A stretch of 33,298 nt of DNA. Origin: Flavobacteriaceae bacterium (GTDB lineage: Bacteria > Bacteroidota > Bacteroidia > Flavobacteriales > Flavobacteriaceae). How positions within the stretch are numbered: position 1 is the first letter of the stretch; each line of letters begins with the position of its first letter. Below the pieces are notes generated by a model. It saw only the letters and a list, made by a program, of their open reading frames with translations. It made no database searches and was not told the DNA's origin. The position numbers and the translations under genes were made by a program. Below are positions 3,607 through 13,252 of the stretch, one piece after another. The stretch is taken from NCBI GenBank assembly GCA_015490835.1, contig WFXA01000256.1, forward strand, positions 1-33,298, in the 5' to 3' direction.

Positions 3607-3635
3607 TTAACTATATAGTTTAACCAAATGGTTAA
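3607..3635. promoter_or_regulatory. Double-palindrome operator candidate upstream of the DUF2202 gene
   Basis: TTAACTATATAGTTTAACCAAATGGTTAA: perfect palindrome AACTATATAGTT next to TTAACC-AAAT-GGTTAA. Reverse complement matches 4378-4406 at 26/29 positions. Confidence 0.7.
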
Positions 3636-3676
3636 TATTTGTAACAAAAGTTACTGTAATACAGTTAGGTACAATA

Positions 3677-3684
3677 TAAATTTG
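3677..3684 (+). promoter_or_regulatory. Bacteroidetes -7 element (TAnnTTTG)
   Basis: TAAATTTG 25 bp upstream of the ATG at 3709; no clear TTG -33 element. Confidence 0.4.
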
Positions 3685-3708
3685 TGTTATAATTTAAAAT
3701 AAAATATT

Positions 3709-4335
3709 ATGAAAAATCTAATAAATTCAAAATTATTATTGATAGCTGTAGCTGCTTTTAGTTCAAGCTTGTTTATCGCTTGTGATGATGATGATAACAC
3801 AAACAATGTTGTAAATAGTACAATTGTAACACAAGAAGAAAGCAATGGTTTGCTCTTCATGCTGGAAGAGGAAAAACTGGCACGTGATACCTATCAATAT
3901 TTATTTAGTATATGGAATCACAACACCTTTGGGAACATTAAAAATAGTGAACAAAATCATATGAATTCAATTGCCGGTTTACTTGATTTATATAATATAG
4001 AATATACTATTTTGCCAGAAGGGCAATTTGAAAACCAAGAGTTACAAAATTTTTATGATCAATTTGTGGAAGACGGACAACAAAGCCTTATAGAAGCACT
4101 TAAAATAGGTGCTACCATAGAGGATTTGGATATTGTTGACTTAGAAGATTACATGAATCAAACGACAAACAATAATATTTTAACAGCTTACGAAAGTTTA
4201 CAATGTGGATCTAGAAATCACTTGCGCGCTTATGTAACAAATATCATAAGTAACGCAGGTACCTATACACCACAATTTTTAAGCCTTGATGATTTTATCG
4301 AAATTATTAGCGAAAGTCACGAAAATTGCAATTAA
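3709..4335 (+). CDS. DUF2202 (ferritin-like fold) lipoprotein
   Basis: Lipobox-like LFIAC after a signal peptide; EEEKLARDTYQYLFSIWNHNTFGNIKNSEQNHMNSIAGLLDLY is the DUF2202 EEEK(L/M)ARD...F..I..SE..HM pattern. Confidence 0.88.
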   Translation: MKNLINSKLLLIAVAAFSSSLFIACDDDDNTNNVVNSTIVTQEESNGLLFMLEEEKLARDTYQYLFSIWNHNTFGNIKNSEQNHMNSIAGLLDLYNIEYTILPEGQFENQELQNFYDQFVEDGQQSLIEALKIGATIEDLDIVDLEDYMNQTTNNNILTAYESLQCGSRNHLRAYVTNIISNAGTYTPQFLSLDDFIEIISESHENCN

Positions 4336-4347
4336 TTCATAATAAAG

Positions 4348-4377
4348 TTGGTGTAACCAAAAAAAGATTTACCTTTG
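4348..4377 (+). promoter_or_regulatory. Promoter of the tetR-efflux operon
   Basis: TTG (4348-4350), 19-bp spacer, TACCTTTG (4370-4377), matching the Bacteroidetes TTG/TAnnTTTG promoter. The predicted start site falls inside the palindromic operator. Confidence 0.6.
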
Positions 4378-4406
4378 TCAACCAAATGGTTAAACTATAT
4401 AGTTAA
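4378..4406. promoter_or_regulatory. Double-palindrome operator candidate upstream of tetR
   Basis: TCAACCAAATGGTTAAACTATATAGTTAA, the inverted near-copy of 3607-3635; lies between the -7 element and the tetR ATG (4411). Confidence 0.7.
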
Positions 4407-5025: not shown

Positions 5026-6282
5026 ATGAAAAACATAATAACAATAGCCGTATTTTTTGCAAGTATTTTAGCAATGAGTCAAGAAACCATAAGTCTTGAT
5101 GAATGTTATCATTTAGTTGAAAAAAACTACCCTTTAGCAAAACAAACTGGTTTACTTAAAAATCAAAACAACTTAGATGTCGAGGTACTAAAAACTAAAA
5201 AATTACCTCAATTTGGGTTAGAAGCACAAGCAACGTATCAATCTGATGTGATTGAGCTTCCTATAAACATACCCAATATATCTATTGATCCGCCAAATAA
5301 TGACCAATACAAAGCAACACTTTCCGTGAATCAGATTATTTATGATGGAGGCTTGGTAAATGCTTCGATTAAAGCTAAAGAAGCTTCGGTTAAAACCCAA
5401 TTAAAGAATATTGAAGTATCCCTATATTCTTTAAAAAAACAAATAAACGACATTTATTTTTCCATCTTGTTAAGCCAAGAAAAGGAAGCCTTGTTACTGG
5501 CAAAGAAACAACAATTGGAGGCTCGATTAAAAGAAGTAAAAGCAGGTATTCAATTTGGAGTTTTATTACCCACATCAGATAGTGTTTTGGAAGCCGAATT
5601 GCTCAAAGTTACACAACAACAAGCCGATTTAAATATAAGCAAGCAATCTCTTTTTACCATGCTTTCTTCGTTAATTGGAAAACCCGTAACATCAGAAATC
5701 ACTTTAGAAACACCCATTGTTTCTGAAACCGTTTCCAACACTTTAAGCAGACCTGAGTTAGCATTATTTTCGCTACAAAAACAACAGATTGAAGCTACCG
5801 AAAAAGTAATAAGCAAACAAAACGCACCCAAACTAATGGGTTTTGCAACAGGAGGTTATGGTAATCCGGGCTTAAATATGTTGGATAATTCATTTCAACC
5901 ATTTTACATCGTGGGTGCCAAACTAAATTGGAATGTGTTTGACTGGAATAGCAGCAAAAAACAACGTAAATCGCTTCAAATTAATAAAGAGATTATAGAT
6001 AACCAAAAAGAAGTTTTTACGCTAAATACGGAGATTGAATTAGATAAAAATCAGTCAGAAATTAGCAAATACCAAACCTATATTGCTTCCGATGAAGAAA
6101 TAATATCATTACGCGAAAAAATTGTAAAAACAGCCGAAGCACAACTTAAAAACGGAGTGATTACGGCATCGGCTTACATTACCGAGTTAACCAATCTATA
6201 TGAAGCAAAAAATAATCTTAATGCACATAAGATTCAGTTATTAATGGCTAAAATAAATTTCAATACCACTCAAGGAAATTAA
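5026..6282 (+). CDS. TolC-family outer membrane efflux protein
   Basis: Signal peptide, SLDECYHLVEKNYPLAKQ..., long coiled-coil repeats; 3 nt after tetR. Confidence 0.88.
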   Translation: MKNIITIAVFFASILAMSQETISLDECYHLVEKNYPLAKQTGLLKNQNNLDVEVLKTKKLPQFGLEAQATYQSDVIELPINIPNISIDPPNNDQYKATLSVNQIIYDGGLVNASIKAKEASVKTQLKNIEVSLYSLKKQINDIYFSILLSQEKEALLLAKKQQLEARLKEVKAGIQFGVLLPTSDSVLEAELLKVTQQQADLNISKQSLFTMLSSLIGKPVTSEITLETPIVSETVSNTLSRPELALFSLQKQQIEATEKVISKQNAPKLMGFATGGYGNPGLNMLDNSFQPFYIVGAKLNWNVFDWNSSKKQRKSLQINKEIIDNQKEVFTLNTEIELDKNQSEISKYQTYIASDEEIISLREKIVKTAEAQLKNGVITASAYITELTNLYEAKNNLNAHKIQLLMAKINFNTTQGN

Positions 6283-6293
6283 AAAAATAAAAT

Positions 6294-7190
6294 ATGAAAC
6301 TTAAAACAACAATTTTAATACTACTTGTTTTTTCAACCCTTATTTCTTGTAAAACAGGAGACGAAAAAGCAGACGGATACGGAAATTTTGAAGCAACAGA
6401 GATCACTATTTCTTCTGAAACGAACGGAAAATTACTTCAATTTACCGTAGAAGAAGGGCAAGATTTAGAAAAAGGAAAAGTGGTGGGGTTGGTAGATACG
6501 CTTCAATTGTATTTAAAAAAACAACAACTGTTAGCATCTAAAAATACCATAGGCTCAAAATCCAGAGGAGTGCTTTCACAAATTAATGTGTTAAATGCCC
6601 AATTAGCAACGGCAAAAACCAACAAAACTCGAATTGAAAACCTGATTAAAGCAAACGCAGGAACGCAAAAACAACTCGATGATGTGAACGGACAAATTGA
6701 CGTTATAAAACAACAGATACGAAGTGTAGAAACTCAAAATGCTCCCATTGTTAACGAGCTTAAAAGCGTAGCTATACAGGTAAAACAAATTGAAGATCAG
6801 ATACAAAAAAGCCTCATTACCAATCCTGTTTCGGGTACGGTTTTAACATCCTATGTAGAGCCCAATGAAGTTGTTAGTTTTGGAAAACCGCTTTACAAAA
6901 TTGCCGATTTAAACACCTTGGAATTACGTGTGTATGTGAGCGAACCACAATTACCAAACATAAAAATAGGACAAGAAGTAACTGTAAAAATTGATTCGGG
7001 AGAAACAATGAAATCCTATGACGGAACCATTACTTGGATAGCCAGCGAAGCCGAATTTACTCCTAAAATTATTCAGACCAAAGAAGAACGGGTAAACTTG
7101 GTTTATGCCATAAAAGTAACTGTAAAAAATGACGGAAGCCTAAAAATAGGAATGCCCGCAGAAATGTGGATTGATAAAAACAATAATTAA
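6294..7190 (+). CDS. HlyD/EmrA-like periplasmic adaptor (membrane fusion) lipoprotein, YbhG-like
   Basis: TLISC lipobox, biotinyl-lipoyl-like halves (NGKLLQFTVEEGQDLEKGKVVGLVDT; ITNPVSGTVLTSYVEPNEVV) around a coiled coil. Confidence 0.9.
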   Translation: MKLKTTILILLVFSTLISCKTGDEKADGYGNFEATEITISSETNGKLLQFTVEEGQDLEKGKVVGLVDTLQLYLKKQQLLASKNTIGSKSRGVLSQINVLNAQLATAKTNKTRIENLIKANAGTQKQLDDVNGQIDVIKQQIRSVETQNAPIVNELKSVAIQVKQIEDQIQKSLITNPVSGTVLTSYVEPNEVVSFGKPLYKIADLNTLELRVYVSEPQLPNIKIGQEVTVKIDSGETMKSYDGTITWIASEAEFTPKIIQTKEERVNLVYAIKVTVKNDGSLKIGMPAEMWIDKNNN

Positions 7191-7202: not shown

Positions 7203-7487
7203 ATGAAATTAAAAAAAGTGTTTTCAGAAAAAAAAGACGTACAAACCAACGTTTTAAGACAAGTGGAAGAAGGTAAAGTTATTGCCTTGCAAATAGACAA
7301 AGGAAAAACGTTAAAAAAGCATGTGAGCAAAGTTCCCGCTATTTTGGTATGTATTTCTGGAAAAGCAGTTTATAATGAAGAAGAGCGAAAGGTAAAATTA
7401 AAAAAAGGAACCTACGTGCTTATTGAACCCAATGTAGAACATGAAGTAACAGCTTCAAAAAAAAGTAATTTCATTTTAATAAAATAA
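7203..7487 (+). CDS. Small single-domain cupin protein
   Basis: 94 aa: LKKHVSKVPAILVCISGKAVYNEEERKVKLKKGTYVLIEPNVEHEVTA, a cupin-type beta-barrel pattern. Confidence 0.78.
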   Translation: MKLKKVFSEKKDVQTNVLRQVEEGKVIALQIDKGKTLKKHVSKVPAILVCISGKAVYNEEERKVKLKKGTYVLIEPNVEHEVTASKKSNFILIK

Positions 7488-7492
7488 AAACC

Positions 7493-8029
7493 ATGATAAA
7501 AAATTTAATACTACTGTCGTCTCTTATTATGCTTGTTGTAAGTTGTAATAATGATACGAAAAAGAAAGCTGATTACACCACAGTAAATCACACCAATAAA
7601 GAAGTTGCTACAACTTCTAATAACACCCAAAGTGATGGATATACTTTAATGAAAAACAATTGTTATGTATGCCACAACCCGAAAGCAAAATCGCATGATG
7701 ATATCATTGCACCTCCCTTTAAAGCGGTTAAAATGCATTATTTAAGAGAATACGACAATCGCGAAGATTTTGTAAATGCAATGGTAAACTGGGTGCAAAA
7801 TCCTGATGAAGAAAAAGCACTAATGTTTGGAGCGGTAAATCGATTTAAGGTAATGCCGGCATTGCCATTAGAAACTGATGACCTTAAAAAAATTGCTGCT
7901 TATATATACGATAATGAAGTAGAACAACCCAACTGGATGCCCGAGCATATGAAAGAGATGAAAGGTAAAATGGGTAAAGGTATGGGAAAAGGAAAGGGTA
8001 AAGGAATGAAAGGGAAACAAAACAATTAA
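7493..8029 (+). CDS. Lipoprotein monoheme c-type cytochrome with Gly/Lys/Met-rich C-terminal tail
   Basis: Lipobox VVSC, heme motif CYVCH, candidate distal Met in KVMPALPL, tail MKEMKGKMGKGMGKGKGKGMKGKQNN. Confidence 0.85.
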   Translation: MIKNLILLSSLIMLVVSCNNDTKKKADYTTVNHTNKEVATTSNNTQSDGYTLMKNNCYVCHNPKAKSHDDIIAPPFKAVKMHYLREYDNREDFVNAMVNWVQNPDEEKALMFGAVNRFKVMPALPLETDDLKKIAAYIYDNEVEQPNWMPEHMKEMKGKMGKGMGKGKGKGMKGKQNN

Positions 8030-8060
8030 AGCATTTGCAAAAAAAATTAAAAGTATAAAA

Positions 8061-8537
8061 ATGAATAAAGCAATCATCATATTTCTCCTTTTTATTAGTG
8101 TTATTAGCTGTAAAAATGAGGTAAAAACCACTAAAAAAGATAATTCTGTTGTTTTTTCAGAAAGAAAAGATGAAACCCAAGAAAAAGATCACCACGGCGA
8201 GAATGAAGAAACAATAACATTAAACCATGGAAAAAAATGGCAAGCAAATCCTGAAACAACTTCAGGAATTAAGAACATGCAAGAAATTGTAAATGCCTTT
8301 TCTAATAATTCGTCTTTGGAAGATTATCAAGAATTTAAAACCAAGTTAGAAGCCGAGTTTACTACCATTTTTCAAAAATGCACGATGAAAGGTGAAGCTC
8401 ATGAACAGTTGCATAATTATTTAAAACCAATGATACCTATTTTTGAAGGGCTTGTTTCTAATCAAACCGAAACAAGGCAAGAGAATTTAAATAAATTAAA
8501 AAAGTACCTCGCAACCTACTCAACCTATTTTATCTAA
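8061..8537 (+). CDS. Hypothetical helical lipoprotein with conserved-looking Cys/Met/His cluster
   Basis: Signal peptide with ISC lipobox; NHGKKWQANPETTSGIKNM...FQKCTMKGEAHEQLHNYLKPM. Stop codon overlaps the next start (TAATG). Confidence 0.7.
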   Translation: MNKAIIIFLLFISVISCKNEVKTTKKDNSVVFSERKDETQEKDHHGENEETITLNHGKKWQANPETTSGIKNMQEIVNAFSNNSSLEDYQEFKTKLEAEFTTIFQKCTMKGEAHEQLHNYLKPMIPIFEGLVSNQTETRQENLNKLKKYLATYSTYFI

Positions 8538-8935
8538 TGAAATTACGTGCAAATAACATACAGAGTTTATGCTTAAAAACAGCTTCAACACTAGCTTTGT
8601 TTTTGGGTGTTATGTCTGTTTTTGCAGGTGGGAAAGTACTTCTTCAAATAGACTCCAAAGATTACAATGTTCTTTATTGGTTAGTGGTTTATAACGTAAT
8701 CTTTGGAGCTATTTCTATTGTTGTTGCCTATCTTATTTGGAAACGAATTAGCAAATTTACATACGCCGTTTGGTTTGTTTTCTTTTCTCACTTTTTTCTA
8801 TCGATATACCTTTTGTTTTTTAACAGTGAAGTAGCTTCAGAAAGCATTAAAGCGATGTTATTTAGAGTCATAACTTGGGTTATTATAGTTGCATTGTCAG
8901 TAATTATTCCATTTAAATTATCTAAGAAGTTATGA
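8537..8935 (+). CDS. Small integral membrane protein (about 4 TM)
   Basis: 132 aa, four hydrophobic stretches; ATG overlaps the upstream stop and its stop overlaps the downstream ATG (ATGA). Confidence 0.75.
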   Translation: MKLRANNIQSLCLKTASTLALFLGVMSVFAGGKVLLQIDSKDYNVLYWLVVYNVIFGAISIVVAYLIWKRISKFTYAVWFVFFSHFFLSIYLLFFNSEVASESIKAMLFRVITWVIIVALSVIIPFKLSKKL

Positions 8936-9834
8936 GCATATCGGTACAACATATTAGTAAATCGTTTAAAGAGATTCCCGCTTTACGAGATATTTCTTTT
9001 GAAGTAAAAGAAGGAGAACTCTTTGGGCTTATTGGTCCCGACGGTGCGGGAAAAACCACGCTGTTCAGGATTTTAACCACCCTTCTTTTTGCCGATAAAG
9101 GAACAGCAACCGTAGCCGGAAACGATGTAGTAGCAGATTATAAACAAATACGAAACAGTGTAGGTTATATGCCGGGACGATTTTCATTATATCAAGACCT
9201 CACCGTAGAAGAAAACCTTACTTTTTTTGCTACCATTTTTGGAACAACGCTGGAAGAAAACTATGATTTAATTAAAGATATTTATGTACAAATAGAGCCC
9301 TTTAAAACCCGTAGAGCAGGAAAACTCTCCGGCGGAATGAAGCAGAAATTAGCATTGAGTTGTTCCTTAATTCACAAACCCAAGGTGTTATTTCTGGACG
9401 AACCCACAACTGGTGTTGATCCGGTTTCGAGAAAAGAATTTTGGGAAATGCTAAAACGCCTTCAAAAAAAAGGAATTACTATTTTGGTTTCTACTCCGTA
9501 TATGGATGAAGCCGCACTTTGCGATAGAATAGCACTCATACAAGACGGAAAAATTTTACAAATAGACACACCTGAAACTATCGCAAATCAATTTCCAAAA
9601 AAAATCTATGATGTAAAAGCAGACAATATGTACTTGCTTATAGAAAGTTTAAAAGAATATTCACATAACCATAGTGTATATCCTTTTGGCGAGTTTGTAC
9701 ATTATACAGATCAACGAGATGATTTTATGCCGCAAGAGCTTACAGCATTTTTACAATCTAAAGGATTAAAAAACATATATATAAACACCACCCAAGCCAC
9801 CATAGAAGATGCTTTTATGGAGCTTGCTAAATAA
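8932..9834 (+). CDS. ABC transporter ATP-binding protein (similar to the N-terminal half of YbhF)
   Basis: Walker A GPDGAGKTT, signature LSGGMKQKLALS, Walker B VLFLDEPTTGVDP, VSTPYMDEAALCDR. Confidence 0.95.
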   Translation: MSISVQHISKSFKEIPALRDISFEVKEGELFGLIGPDGAGKTTLFRILTTLLFADKGTATVAGNDVVADYKQIRNSVGYMPGRFSLYQDLTVEENLTFFATIFGTTLEENYDLIKDIYVQIEPFKTRRAGKLSGGMKQKLALSCSLIHKPKVLFLDEPTTGVDPVSRKEFWEMLKRLQKKGITILVSTPYMDEAALCDRIALIQDGKILQIDTPETIANQFPKKIYDVKADNMYLLIESLKEYSHNHSVYPFGEFVHYTDQRDDFMPQELTAFLQSKGLKNIYINTTQATIEDAFMELAK

Positions 9835-9848
9835 CTAGTACTCATTCT

Positions 9849-9875
9849 CCTGCAAGGTTTTTAAAACCTTGTAGG
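9849..9875. repeat. Short palindromic intergenic repeat
   Basis: CCTGCAAGGTTTTTAAAACCTTGTAGG, near-perfect inverted repeat. Confidence 0.75.
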
Positions 9876-9920
9876 TATAAATAGAAGTGGTTTTTGTCTC
9901 AAAGTTCTTTTAAGTATAAA

Positions 9921-9939
9921 AAAACCTTGTAGGTATAAA
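9921..9939. repeat. Second half-copy of the intergenic repeat
   Basis: AAAACCTTGTAGGTATAAA identical to 9863-9881 (19/19). Confidence 0.75.
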
Positions 9940-9981
9940 AAGTCACTTCGTTAGGTAACGGAAATAGAAAAAAGTTAAATT

Positions 9982-10710
9982 ATGAACAACCAAAACGTTA
10001 TAGAAGCCCAAAAATTAACCAAAAAATTTGGTGATTTTACAGCGGTTAATGCTATTTCTTTTAAGGTAAAAAAAGGCGAGATATTTGGTTTTCTGGGAGC
10101 TAACGGAGCGGGAAAAACCACAGCGATGAAAATGCTTATCGGAATTTCAAAACCCACATCTGGAGAAGCTAAAGTAGTAGATTATGACGTTTATACCCAA
10201 CCCGAATTAATTAAAAATAATATTGGGTATATGAGTCAAAAATTTGCCTTATACGATGACCTTACCGTACGAGAAAACATTACTTTTTTTGGCGGAATTT
10301 ACGGGTTAAAACGTTCGGAGATTAAACAAAAAGCCGAAGCACTTATTAACGAATTGGGCTTGCATGAGGTTGCTGCTGATTTGGTTGGGTCCTTACCCTT
10401 GGGGTGGAAACAAAAAATAGCGTTCTCAGTCGCACTATTGCATGAGCCAAAAATTATTTTTTTAGACGAACCAACAGGTGGTGTCGATCCCATTACTCGA
10501 AGACAATTCTGGGAAATGATTTACAAAACAGCACACGAAGGAACCACCGTATTTGTAACCACACATTATATGGATGAAGCCGAATATTGCGACCGTGTTT
10601 CCATTATGGTAAACGGTAAAATAAAAGCACTCGACTCGCCAACTGAACTTAAAAAACAGTTTCAGGTAGCGAGTATGAACGATGTATTTTTAAAATTAGC
10701 CAGAGGATGA
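9982..10710 (+). CDS. ABC transporter ATP-binding protein (similar to the C-terminal half of YbhF)
   Basis: Walker A GANGAGKTT, Walker B IIFLDEPTGGVDP, non-canonical signature LPLGWKQKIAFS, TTHYMDEAEYCDR. Confidence 0.94.
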   Translation: MNNQNVIEAQKLTKKFGDFTAVNAISFKVKKGEIFGFLGANGAGKTTAMKMLIGISKPTSGEAKVVDYDVYTQPELIKNNIGYMSQKFALYDDLTVRENITFFGGIYGLKRSEIKQKAEALINELGLHEVAADLVGSLPLGWKQKIAFSVALLHEPKIIFLDEPTGGVDPITRRQFWEMIYKTAHEGTTVFVTTHYMDEAEYCDRVSIMVNGKIKALDSPTELKKQFQVASMNDVFLKLARG

Positions 10711-10934: not shown

Positions 10935-12041
10935 ATGAAACGATTTATAGGATTTATTAAAAAAGAATTTTATCACATCTTTAGAGATAGACGCTCGTTG
11001 TTTATTCTTTTTGGGATGCCTGTTGCCCAAATTATGTTGTTTGGTTTTGCCATTACCAATGAGATTAACAATGTTGACATTGCTATTTATGATAAATCTA
11101 ACGATGTAACCACACAACAACTCATTTCTAAAATTACGTCTTCAAAATATTTCACCAACAAACAACGCATTCACAATGAAGCCGAAATAGAATCGGTTTT
11201 TAAAAAGGGAAAAGTAAAAGCCGTCTTAATTTTTGAAAAAGATTTTGATAAAAAACTAACAAAAAATCATCAAGCAACGGTACAAATCATTACCGATGCC
11301 ACAGACCCTAATACGGCTAATACCATTAGCAACTATGTAAATTCTATTTTAAAAAATTACCAACAAGAAAAAAACAAAGAAGTAAAATTGGCATATCAAA
11401 TTGTACCTCAAACCAGAATGTATTACAACCCCGAGCTTAAAAGTGTTTTTATGTTTGTGCCGGGCGTAATGACTATTATTTTAATGTTGGTTTCTGCTAT
11501 GATGACTTCCATCTCCATTACTCGTGAAAAGGAAATGGGAACCATGGAAATACTACTGGTCTCACCCATAAAACCGTATCAAGTAATTATAGGGAAAGTG
11601 TTTCCGTATATTTTCTTGTCTATTATCAATGCCGCTGTAATTATTGTATTAAGCATCTTTATTTTTAAAATGCCGGTGGAAGGAAGTTTGTTTTTGCTGG
11701 GTTTAGAAAGTATTTTGTTTATTATTAATGCATTGTCTTTAGGAATTTTAATTTCAACTATTTCCGAAACACAACAAACAGCGATGATGGTTTCTCTCAT
11801 GGGATTAATGCTTCCGGTTATTTTACTCTCAGGGTTTATCTTCCCAATAAGTAGTATGCCTTTACCGCTTCAGATAATTAGTCATATAATTCCGGCAAAA
11901 TGGTTTATTATCATACTTAAAGCCATTATGCTAAAAGGAGTAGGTATTTCTTTTATATGGAAAGAAACCCTTATAATTTTAGGAATGACCTTGTTTTTTA
12001 TGGGCTTAAGTATAAAGAAATATAAAATTAGATTAGAATGA
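10935..12041 (+). CDS. ABC-2 type transporter permease (YbhS-like)
   Basis: MKRFIGFIKKEFYHIFRDRRSLFILFGMPVAQIMLFGFAI..., ITREKEMGTMEILLVSPIKPYQVIIGKVFPY. Confidence 0.93.
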   Translation: MKRFIGFIKKEFYHIFRDRRSLFILFGMPVAQIMLFGFAITNEINNVDIAIYDKSNDVTTQQLISKITSSKYFTNKQRIHNEAEIESVFKKGKVKAVLIFEKDFDKKLTKNHQATVQIITDATDPNTANTISNYVNSILKNYQQEKNKEVKLAYQIVPQTRMYYNPELKSVFMFVPGVMTIILMLVSAMMTSISITREKEMGTMEILLVSPIKPYQVIIGKVFPYIFLSIINAAVIIVLSIFIFKMPVEGSLFLLGLESILFIINALSLGILISTISETQQTAMMVSLMGLMLPVILLSGFIFPISSMPLPLQIISHIIPAKWFIIILKAIMLKGVGISFIWKETLIILGMTLFFMGLSIKKYKIRLE

Positions 12042-12115
12042 TGAACCAAAACATTCAATTAAAAAAAAGAGATAATAATTTATAGAATAATGCTTTTGCA
12101 TATTCAGAAAAGAAA

Positions 12116-13252
12116 ATGAAAACAATACTATTTATCATACAAAAAGAATTTAAGCAAATCTTTAGAAACAAAGGAATGTTGCCTATTATTTTTGTGCTTC
12201 CGTTATTACAGCTGGTGATTCTCTCTAATGCAGCCACCTTTGAGGTTAAAAACATTAAATTCTCCTATATCGATAATGATAATACATCGTTTTCAAGAGC
12301 ATTAATCGATAAGTTTGAAGCCTCTACCTATTTCAAGGTTTTAGATAAATTTGAATCTCAAAAAACAGCAAAGCAAGCCATGTTAAAAGGCGATGTTGAT
12401 GTGGTTTTAGAAATCCCCAACCATTTTGAAAAAGACCTAATCACGAACAAAAAAACAAACCTTTTGGTTGCAATCAATGCCATTGACGGAGCTGCTGCCG
12501 GAGTAGAAAATGTATATATTAATCAAATTGTTCAACAATTTAATAAAAATGTGATTGTTGATTTAAAAAAGTCGATGGTCATAACTCCTAGCACAAATAC
12601 TGAATTGTTAAAAACCATAGATAGCATTCCGTTGTTTTGGTACAATAAAACCTTAAATTATAAAACCTTTATGGTGCCCGGTATTTTAGTGTTGTTGGTG
12701 ACTATGATTTCTTTATTTCTATCGGGAATGAATATTGTACGTGAAAAAGAAATTGGCACCTTAGAGCAAATAAATGTTACACCTATTAAGAAATACCAGT
12801 TTATTGTGGGTAAGTTATTTCCTTTTTGGGTCATTGGTTTTGGGTTATTGACTATTGGATTAATCTTGGGAAAACTCATCTTTAATGTGCCTATGGTAGG
12901 GAGTATTGCACTTATTTATTTTTACACGGCAATTTATTTATTGGTTCTTTTAGGAATGGGGTTCTTCATTTCTAATTTTACAGATACCCAACAGCAAGCT
13001 ATGTTTATTGCTTGGTTTTTTGTAGTTATTTTTATTTTAATGAGTGGTCTTTTTACTCCTATTGAGAGTATGCCGGAGTGGGCACAATTCTTAACCGAGT
13101 TTAACCCCATTCGGTATTTTGTAGAGGTGATGCGAATGGTTATGCTGAAAGGAGCTTCTTTTACAGATATTCTTCCGCAATTTGTTAAAACTACGGTGTA
13201 CGCTCTTGTAATGAATAGCTTGGCGGTTTGGAGTTATAGAAAGACGAGTTAA
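12116..13252 (+). CDS. ABC-2 type transporter permease (YbhR-like)
   Basis: QKEFKQIFRNKGMLPIIFVLPLLQLVILSNAATFEV..., IVREKEIGTLEQINVTPIKKYQFIVGKLFPF. Confidence 0.93.
   Translation: MKTILFIIQKEFKQIFRNKGMLPIIFVLPLLQLVILSNAATFEVKNIKFSYIDNDNTSFSRALIDKFEASTYFKVLDKFESQKTAKQAMLKGDVDVVLEIPNHFEKDLITNKKTNLLVAINAIDGAAAGVENVYINQIVQQFNKNVIVDLKKSMVITPSTNTELLKTIDSIPLFWYNKTLNYKTFMVPGILVLLVTMISLFLSGMNIVREKEIGTLEQINVTPIKKYQFIVGKLFPFWVIGFGLLTIGLILGKLIFNVPMVGSIALIYFYTAIYLLVLLGMGFFISNFTDTQQQAMFIAWFFVVIFILMSGLFTPIESMPEWAQFLTEFNPIRYFVEVMRMVMLKGASFTDILPQFVKTTVYALVMNSLAVWSYRKTS

Follow-up and report, generated by a model that had tools for sequence, protein, structure and literature searches.

A tandem palindromic operator predicted to place a ferritin-like DUF2202 lipoprotein gene and a YbhGFSR-type efflux operon under one TetR repressor

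The window, that is to say the whole 33,298-nucleotide stretch of Flavobacteriaceae DNA analysed here, carries two inverted copies of a tandem palindrome, O1 and O2, which flank the gene of a ferritin-like DUF2202 lipoprotein; O1 directly precedes a tetR gene at the head of an efflux operon (Table 1). In our main reading, to which we assign a probability of roughly 70%, both are copies of the tandem operator of the adjacent TetR protein; O1 would mediate self-repression of the efflux operon, and O2 would add the DUF2202 gene to the regulon through hindrance of an activator. The operator identity and its link to tetR, the recurrent linkage of DUF2202, and the activator box with its spacing come from comparison between genomes; binding, occupancy by two dimers, repression, interference, and release by an inducer are the parts that we infer.

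Table 1. Predicted features of the locus, with positions in the window
Feature	Position	Strand	Remarks
O2, tandem TetR operator (predicted) upstream of DUF2202	3607-3635	-	opposite orientation to O1; palindrome pair at 3609-3620 and 3622-3633
Crp/Fnr-type activator box GTAACAAAAGTTAC of the DUF2202 promoter	3641-3654	.	7 bp from O2 palindrome; conserved family-wide before DUF2202
DUF2202 promoter -7 element TAAATTTG	3677-3684	+	box-to-element distance of 22 nt, as in other genera
DUF2202 gene, ferritin-like lipoprotein, 208 aa	3709-4335	+	PF09968, E 4e-49; model matches MJ0754, TM 0.96 by target length
tetR promoter -7 element TACCTTTG	4370-4377	+	same position in orthologues; possible -33 TTG at 4348-4350
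O1, tandem TetR operator (predicted) between -7 element and tetR ATG	4378-4406	+	palindromes 4380-4391 and 4393-4404
tetR, repressor (predicted), 203 aa	4411-5022	+	PF00440, E 6e-15; TetR-type model, pLDDT 89.7
TolC-type outer membrane efflux protein	5026-6282	+	PF02321
HlyD/YbhG-type membrane fusion protein	6294-7190	+	PF13437, PF16576; PRK03598 below cut-off
Variable accessory block: cupin, cytochrome c, two small proteins	7203-8935	+	composition differs between genomes
Two ABC ATPases (8932-9834, 9982-10710)	8932-10710	+	resemble the YbhF halves
Two ABC-2 permeases (10935-12041, 12116-13252)	10935-13252	+	YbhS/YbhR type

One palindrome used twice, at two sites of one locus

The inverted 29-bp pair described in the initial annotation was verified in exact sequence and coordinates: O2 and the reverse complement of O1 are identical at 26 of 29 positions. 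The description of two adjacent palindromes per copy also stands, but these are not of two distinct kinds; each copy contains the same 12-mer palindrome, AACYAWWTRGTT, twice, with the centers 13 bp apart. Two different palindromes serving two proteins are ruled out, because a single consensus accommodates both, and their variation between species stays within it. The palindrome pairs of O1 and O2 both fit this consensus perfectly (the 0-mismatch pattern).

A search with the 27-mer allowing up to 3 mismatches matched just these two places within the window and nothing in 100 shuffles. The genome-wide motif scan proposed in the initial annotation was run on the whole 2.77-Mb draft assembly, which consists of 276 contigs and is 94% complete: the tandem pattern occurs there without mismatch at two places, both at this locus, the next-best match has 3 mismatches, and a search for a third tandem copy in this assembly found none. 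Since base composition predicts about 5e-5 tandems per genome and the shuffles gave 0 of 100, neither shuffled sequence nor base composition explains the two copies. In a search for further targets, single palindromes with one mismatch numbered 35 in the host genome versus 37 in the reversed control; one further perfect single palindrome (C188) apparently lies within coding sequence.

The tandem palindrome marks one TetR clade

One copy had been placed between the -7 element and the ATG of tetR and the other upstream of the ferritin-like lipoprotein gene; both placements agree with Table 1, and O1 begins immediately 3' of the tetR -7 element. The same arrangement emerged from pattern searches made independently of the TetR protein. 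The tandem is present in 29 of 400 family genomes (the window genome included), and in all 28 others it occurs once, no more than 15 bp upstream of the start codon of a tetR orthologue and immediately 3' of a -7-like TTTG or TTTA. A public scan of 84,980 species gave at least 80 tandem loci, and the counts that follow refer to the matches listed. By a strict rule, a TetR gene directly follows the tandem in 69 of the 80 loci; about 72 have the tandem before tetR when three more are added, in which the gene is cut by the locus end (L087), the start is extended (L110), or DUF2202 comes first (L136). Several of the leftover loci are 13-bp microsatellite-like repeats. The tandem is thus limited to two copies in the host genome and elsewhere essentially always precedes tetR, and because protein-blind searches place it there, it can be assigned to the adjacent TetR.

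The listed public loci span several phyla and include records labelled Desulfobacteraceae, Zixibacteriota, and Aminicenantes, in which the TetR is only about 28–31% identical to the window protein. In 62 aligned public loci, the tandem occupies the same place as O1, the free central palindrome positions are almost exclusively A/T, and the order towards the gene, an AACC-palindrome followed by an AACT/AACC-palindrome, is mostly preserved. The window protein has the TetR_N helix-turn-helix and an all-helical ligand domain of the TetR family, and its model matches RutR and HlyIIR. Across TetRs down to 20–30% identity, the recognition helix is near-invariant, with a mean top-residue frequency of 0.86 (residues 38–50) versus 0.49 in the ligand domain.

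O1 is a palindromic site that overlaps the promoter of tetR and is conserved together with the protein. The operator identity and the near-exclusive link to tetR point to the tandem as the autoregulatory operator of one TetR clade. A literature search with the operator strings found no bacterial-regulation paper. The conserved operator, TTAACCAWWTGGTT-A-AACTAWWTAGTTAA, would thus describe an apparently uncharacterised, multi-phylum TetR clade and allow sequence-based prediction of the regulon of a common ABC-2 efflux operon. This operon is of the YbhGFSR type, with the order tetR-TolC-HlyD-(accessories)-two ABC ATPases-two ABC-2 permeases.

Two variations on this arrangement were observed. In two Bacteroidota outside the family (L075 and L139), a third palindrome (aaccatttggtt and aaccagatggtt, respectively) lies between the tandem and tetR. 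In genomes G009 (L049:10934-11608) and G004 (L014), tetR is broken by an in-frame stop or a frame break and the operator is largely kept; the interruption may be a sequencing error or a loss of the repressor.

A ferritin-like lipoprotein gene is repeatedly linked to the operon

The product of the gene between O2 and O1 belongs to the DUF2202 family by both its family profile (PF09968) and its helical-bundle fold (pLDDT 84.7; superposition on MJ0754 with an RMSD of 0.8–1.0 Å), and the EEEKLARD, SEQxHM, and CGSxNH motifs are conserved. Its N-terminal sequence looks like a lipoprotein signal and continues with acidic residues. Acidic residues behind a lipoprotein signal can mark surface export in Bacteroidota.

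The linkage of DUF2202 to the tetR operon takes several forms: (i) the window and genome G003 share the arrangement O2-DUF2202-O1-tetR, O2 in G003 having one palindrome partly changed (AACTATTCGGTT); (ii) G004 has DUF2202-O1-tetR on a contig that starts just before DUF2202, so that the O2 region is not covered; (iii) G274 has DUF2202-operator-tetR without O2; (iv) in the Lutibacter NORP37 metagenome-assembled genome, the operator stands directly before DUF2202-tetR-TolC-HlyD, with no second operator before tetR; and (v) in G008 and Flavobacterium UBA8409, the operon itself contains DUF2202, between HlyD and cytochrome c. O2 upstream of DUF2202 is confirmed in the window and G003 only. These differing arrangements support the proposal, already made in the initial annotation, of a regulon that pairs a ferritin-like lipoprotein with an ABC-2 exporter, in which the second operator copy would place DUF2202 in the regulon of the exporter's TetR.

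Most DUF2202 genes of the family, in other genera, have no tandem TetR site nearby, and the link to TetR is therefore lineage-specific. In the DUF2202 tree, the operon-linked members fall into two separate clades, so DUF2202 was probably recruited to the TetR operon at least twice. DUF2202 is near cydAB in several genera and cydB is near tetR in some, and this proximity may explain their common neighborhood. In G009 (L050:2994-3018), a tandem operator was also observed 35 bp beyond the stop codon of DUF2202; it immediately precedes the ATG of another gene, which is apparently frame-interrupted, resembles DUF2141 by eye, and is a possible further target.

O2 abuts a Crp/Fnr-type box in the DUF2202 promoter

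The pattern GTAAC-N4-GTTAC is matched at 8 or more of 10 positions in 23 of 33 family DUF2202 upstream regions, versus an average of 1.8 in shuffles. In most of the 19 alignable family regions, the box is followed after 22 nt by (T/G)AAATTTG, and Flavobacterium UBA8409 retains such a box before its in-operon DUF2202. An inverted-repeat box at a fixed distance upstream of the -7 element suggests the class II geometry of Crp/Fnr promoters, with the box at about -41.5 from the start site inferred by this analogy; a search for a -33 element in the DUF2202 promoter identified none.

Perfect boxes number 13 in the host genome, versus 4 in the control. They lie near genes of a multicopper oxidase, a sulfide:quinone-reductase-type FAD oxidoreductase, a peroxiredoxin, and a metallo-beta-lactamase/rhodanese protein; further boxes are near the sulfur-transport genes SulP and DUF6691 and near a Crp/Fnr gene (L255:5525-6160), whose DUF983-crp operon has boxes on both sides. 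The flanking boxes are suggestive of autoregulation. Taken together, the boxes (window 3641-3684; L240-L257) likely mark a Crp/Fnr regulon of sulfide, thiol, and copper genes that includes the regulator's own operon. A literature search on HcpR as the Crp/Fnr protein found no comparable box in the papers retrieved.

The palindrome and box centers are 20 bp apart, a distance at which, judging from typical footprints, TetR on O2 would contact or collide with a Crp/Fnr dimer. Because O2 lies against the activator box and not over the core promoter, anti-activation is likelier than a roadblock.

Proposed regulation and alternative explanations

The origin of O2 admits a simpler account, namely that O1 is a genuine autoregulatory operator and O2 a non-functional relic of its local inverted duplication before DUF2202. 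O2 is indeed an inverted near-copy of O1, the promoter in which it lies already has its own activator box, and one of its palindromes is degraded in G003. We nevertheless consider a relic unlikely, given the perfect fit of both window O2 palindromes to the consensus, the independent occurrence of DUF2202 behind this operator in Lutibacter NORP37, and its position inside the operon in two other genomes. More improbable still is that TetR on O2 covers the core promoter of DUF2202, with a -7-like AATATTTG at 3634-3641 taking the place of TAAATTTG at 3677; AATATTTG directly follows the operator, but it overlaps the activator box and lacks matching conservation, and the promoter that is conserved family-wide is box-22 nt-AAATTTG.

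The presence of two predicted strong sites in cis could also indicate cooperation of O1 and O2 by DNA looping over the intervening 771 bp, to which we give very little weight because relatives have a single tandem site; to our knowledge, looping is uncommon among TetR-family repressors. Inverted repeats on both sides of one gene, finally, recall the termini of a small mobile cassette with DUF2202 as its cargo. This candidate was rejected as the least probable of all, since the repeats are not confined to element ends: dozens of genomes have the sequence before tetR as a lone copy, DUF2202 lies beside tetR without the outer copy in G274, and the host genome has no third copy.

With O1 and O2 taken as operators of the one TetR, regulation would proceed as follows. 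Repressor bound to O1, probably as two dimers on the two 12-bp palindromes, would cover the tetR transcription start, as its conserved position suggests, and sterically block initiation; the efflux operon would remain off until a ligand releases TetR. O2 would bring the DUF2202 gene under the same repressor, and since its promoter is predicted to be Crp/Fnr-activated, TetR on O2 would most likely hinder the activator or an upstream contact of RNA polymerase. DUF2202 would be fully on only with the activator active and TetR released.

More tentatively, and with odds somewhat against it, the ferritin-like and possibly surface-exposed DUF2202 lipoprotein could be a partner of the exporter, brought into the TetR regulon on at least two occasions and controlled in the window lineage by an activator AND NOT TetR promoter, in which the TetR operator is set against the Crp/Fnr box. 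If so, export and metal/sulfur stress would be joined at one promoter, the other candidate targets of the box being sulfide, thiol, and copper genes. The TetR/operator design is ordinary; the pairing of DUF2202 with an exporter is undescribed, and what is new lies in the second target and the composite promoter. An unstudied ferritin-like family is thereby tied to an exporter and to a Crp/Fnr-type regulon, which gives two leads to its function.

Comparison with known systems

QacR is a TetR-family protein that binds as a pair of dimers. Such occupancy of O1 and O2 would fit their two equal palindromes, spaced by 13 bp, and two dimers per site are plausible because binding by paired dimers was reported for the relatives HlyIIR and RefZ (PMC1828608, PMC6657595). 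Of the solved structures, that of HlyIIR is one of the nearest to the window TetR by sequence and by fold, and RefZ is its top NCBIfam match, below the cut-off; the operators, targets, and hosts of HlyIIR, RefZ, and QacR differ from those of the window TetR.

MJ0754 (PDB 3q4n, 3q4o, 3q4q, and 3q4r) is a solved DUF2202 protein, and its profile match to the window protein has an E value of 1e-64. The ferritin-like helical fold is common to MJ0754 and the window model, and a Zn2+ structure of MJ0754 exists (title of 3q4r). A literature search found no paper on DUF2202 and none on MJ0754. Unlike MJ0754, the window protein has a lipoprotein signal and a predicted regulated promoter.

In the CecR-YbhGFSR system of Escherichia coli, as in the window, tetR is directly upstream of genes for HlyD, a YbhF-type ATPase, and two ABC-2 permeases; the transporter proteins are homologous, and the window operon encodes a YbhF/YbhS/YbhR-type exporter with a TetR regulator. 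Orthology of the window TetR with CecR is ruled out, as only 47 residues of the helix-turn-helix align (E 5e-5) and there is no match to the CecR C-terminal family. An operator-like palindrome, TTAATCAATCATTTGATTAA, lies directly upstream of E. coli cecR (L183:8644-8873), as the tandem does upstream of the window tetR; it resembles the half-site TTAAYCA of the window operator, which hints at related recognition, but it is single and has a wider spacer. The window operon differs further from CecR-YbhGFSR in that it includes a TolC-type gene of its own and encodes its ATPases as two separate proteins.
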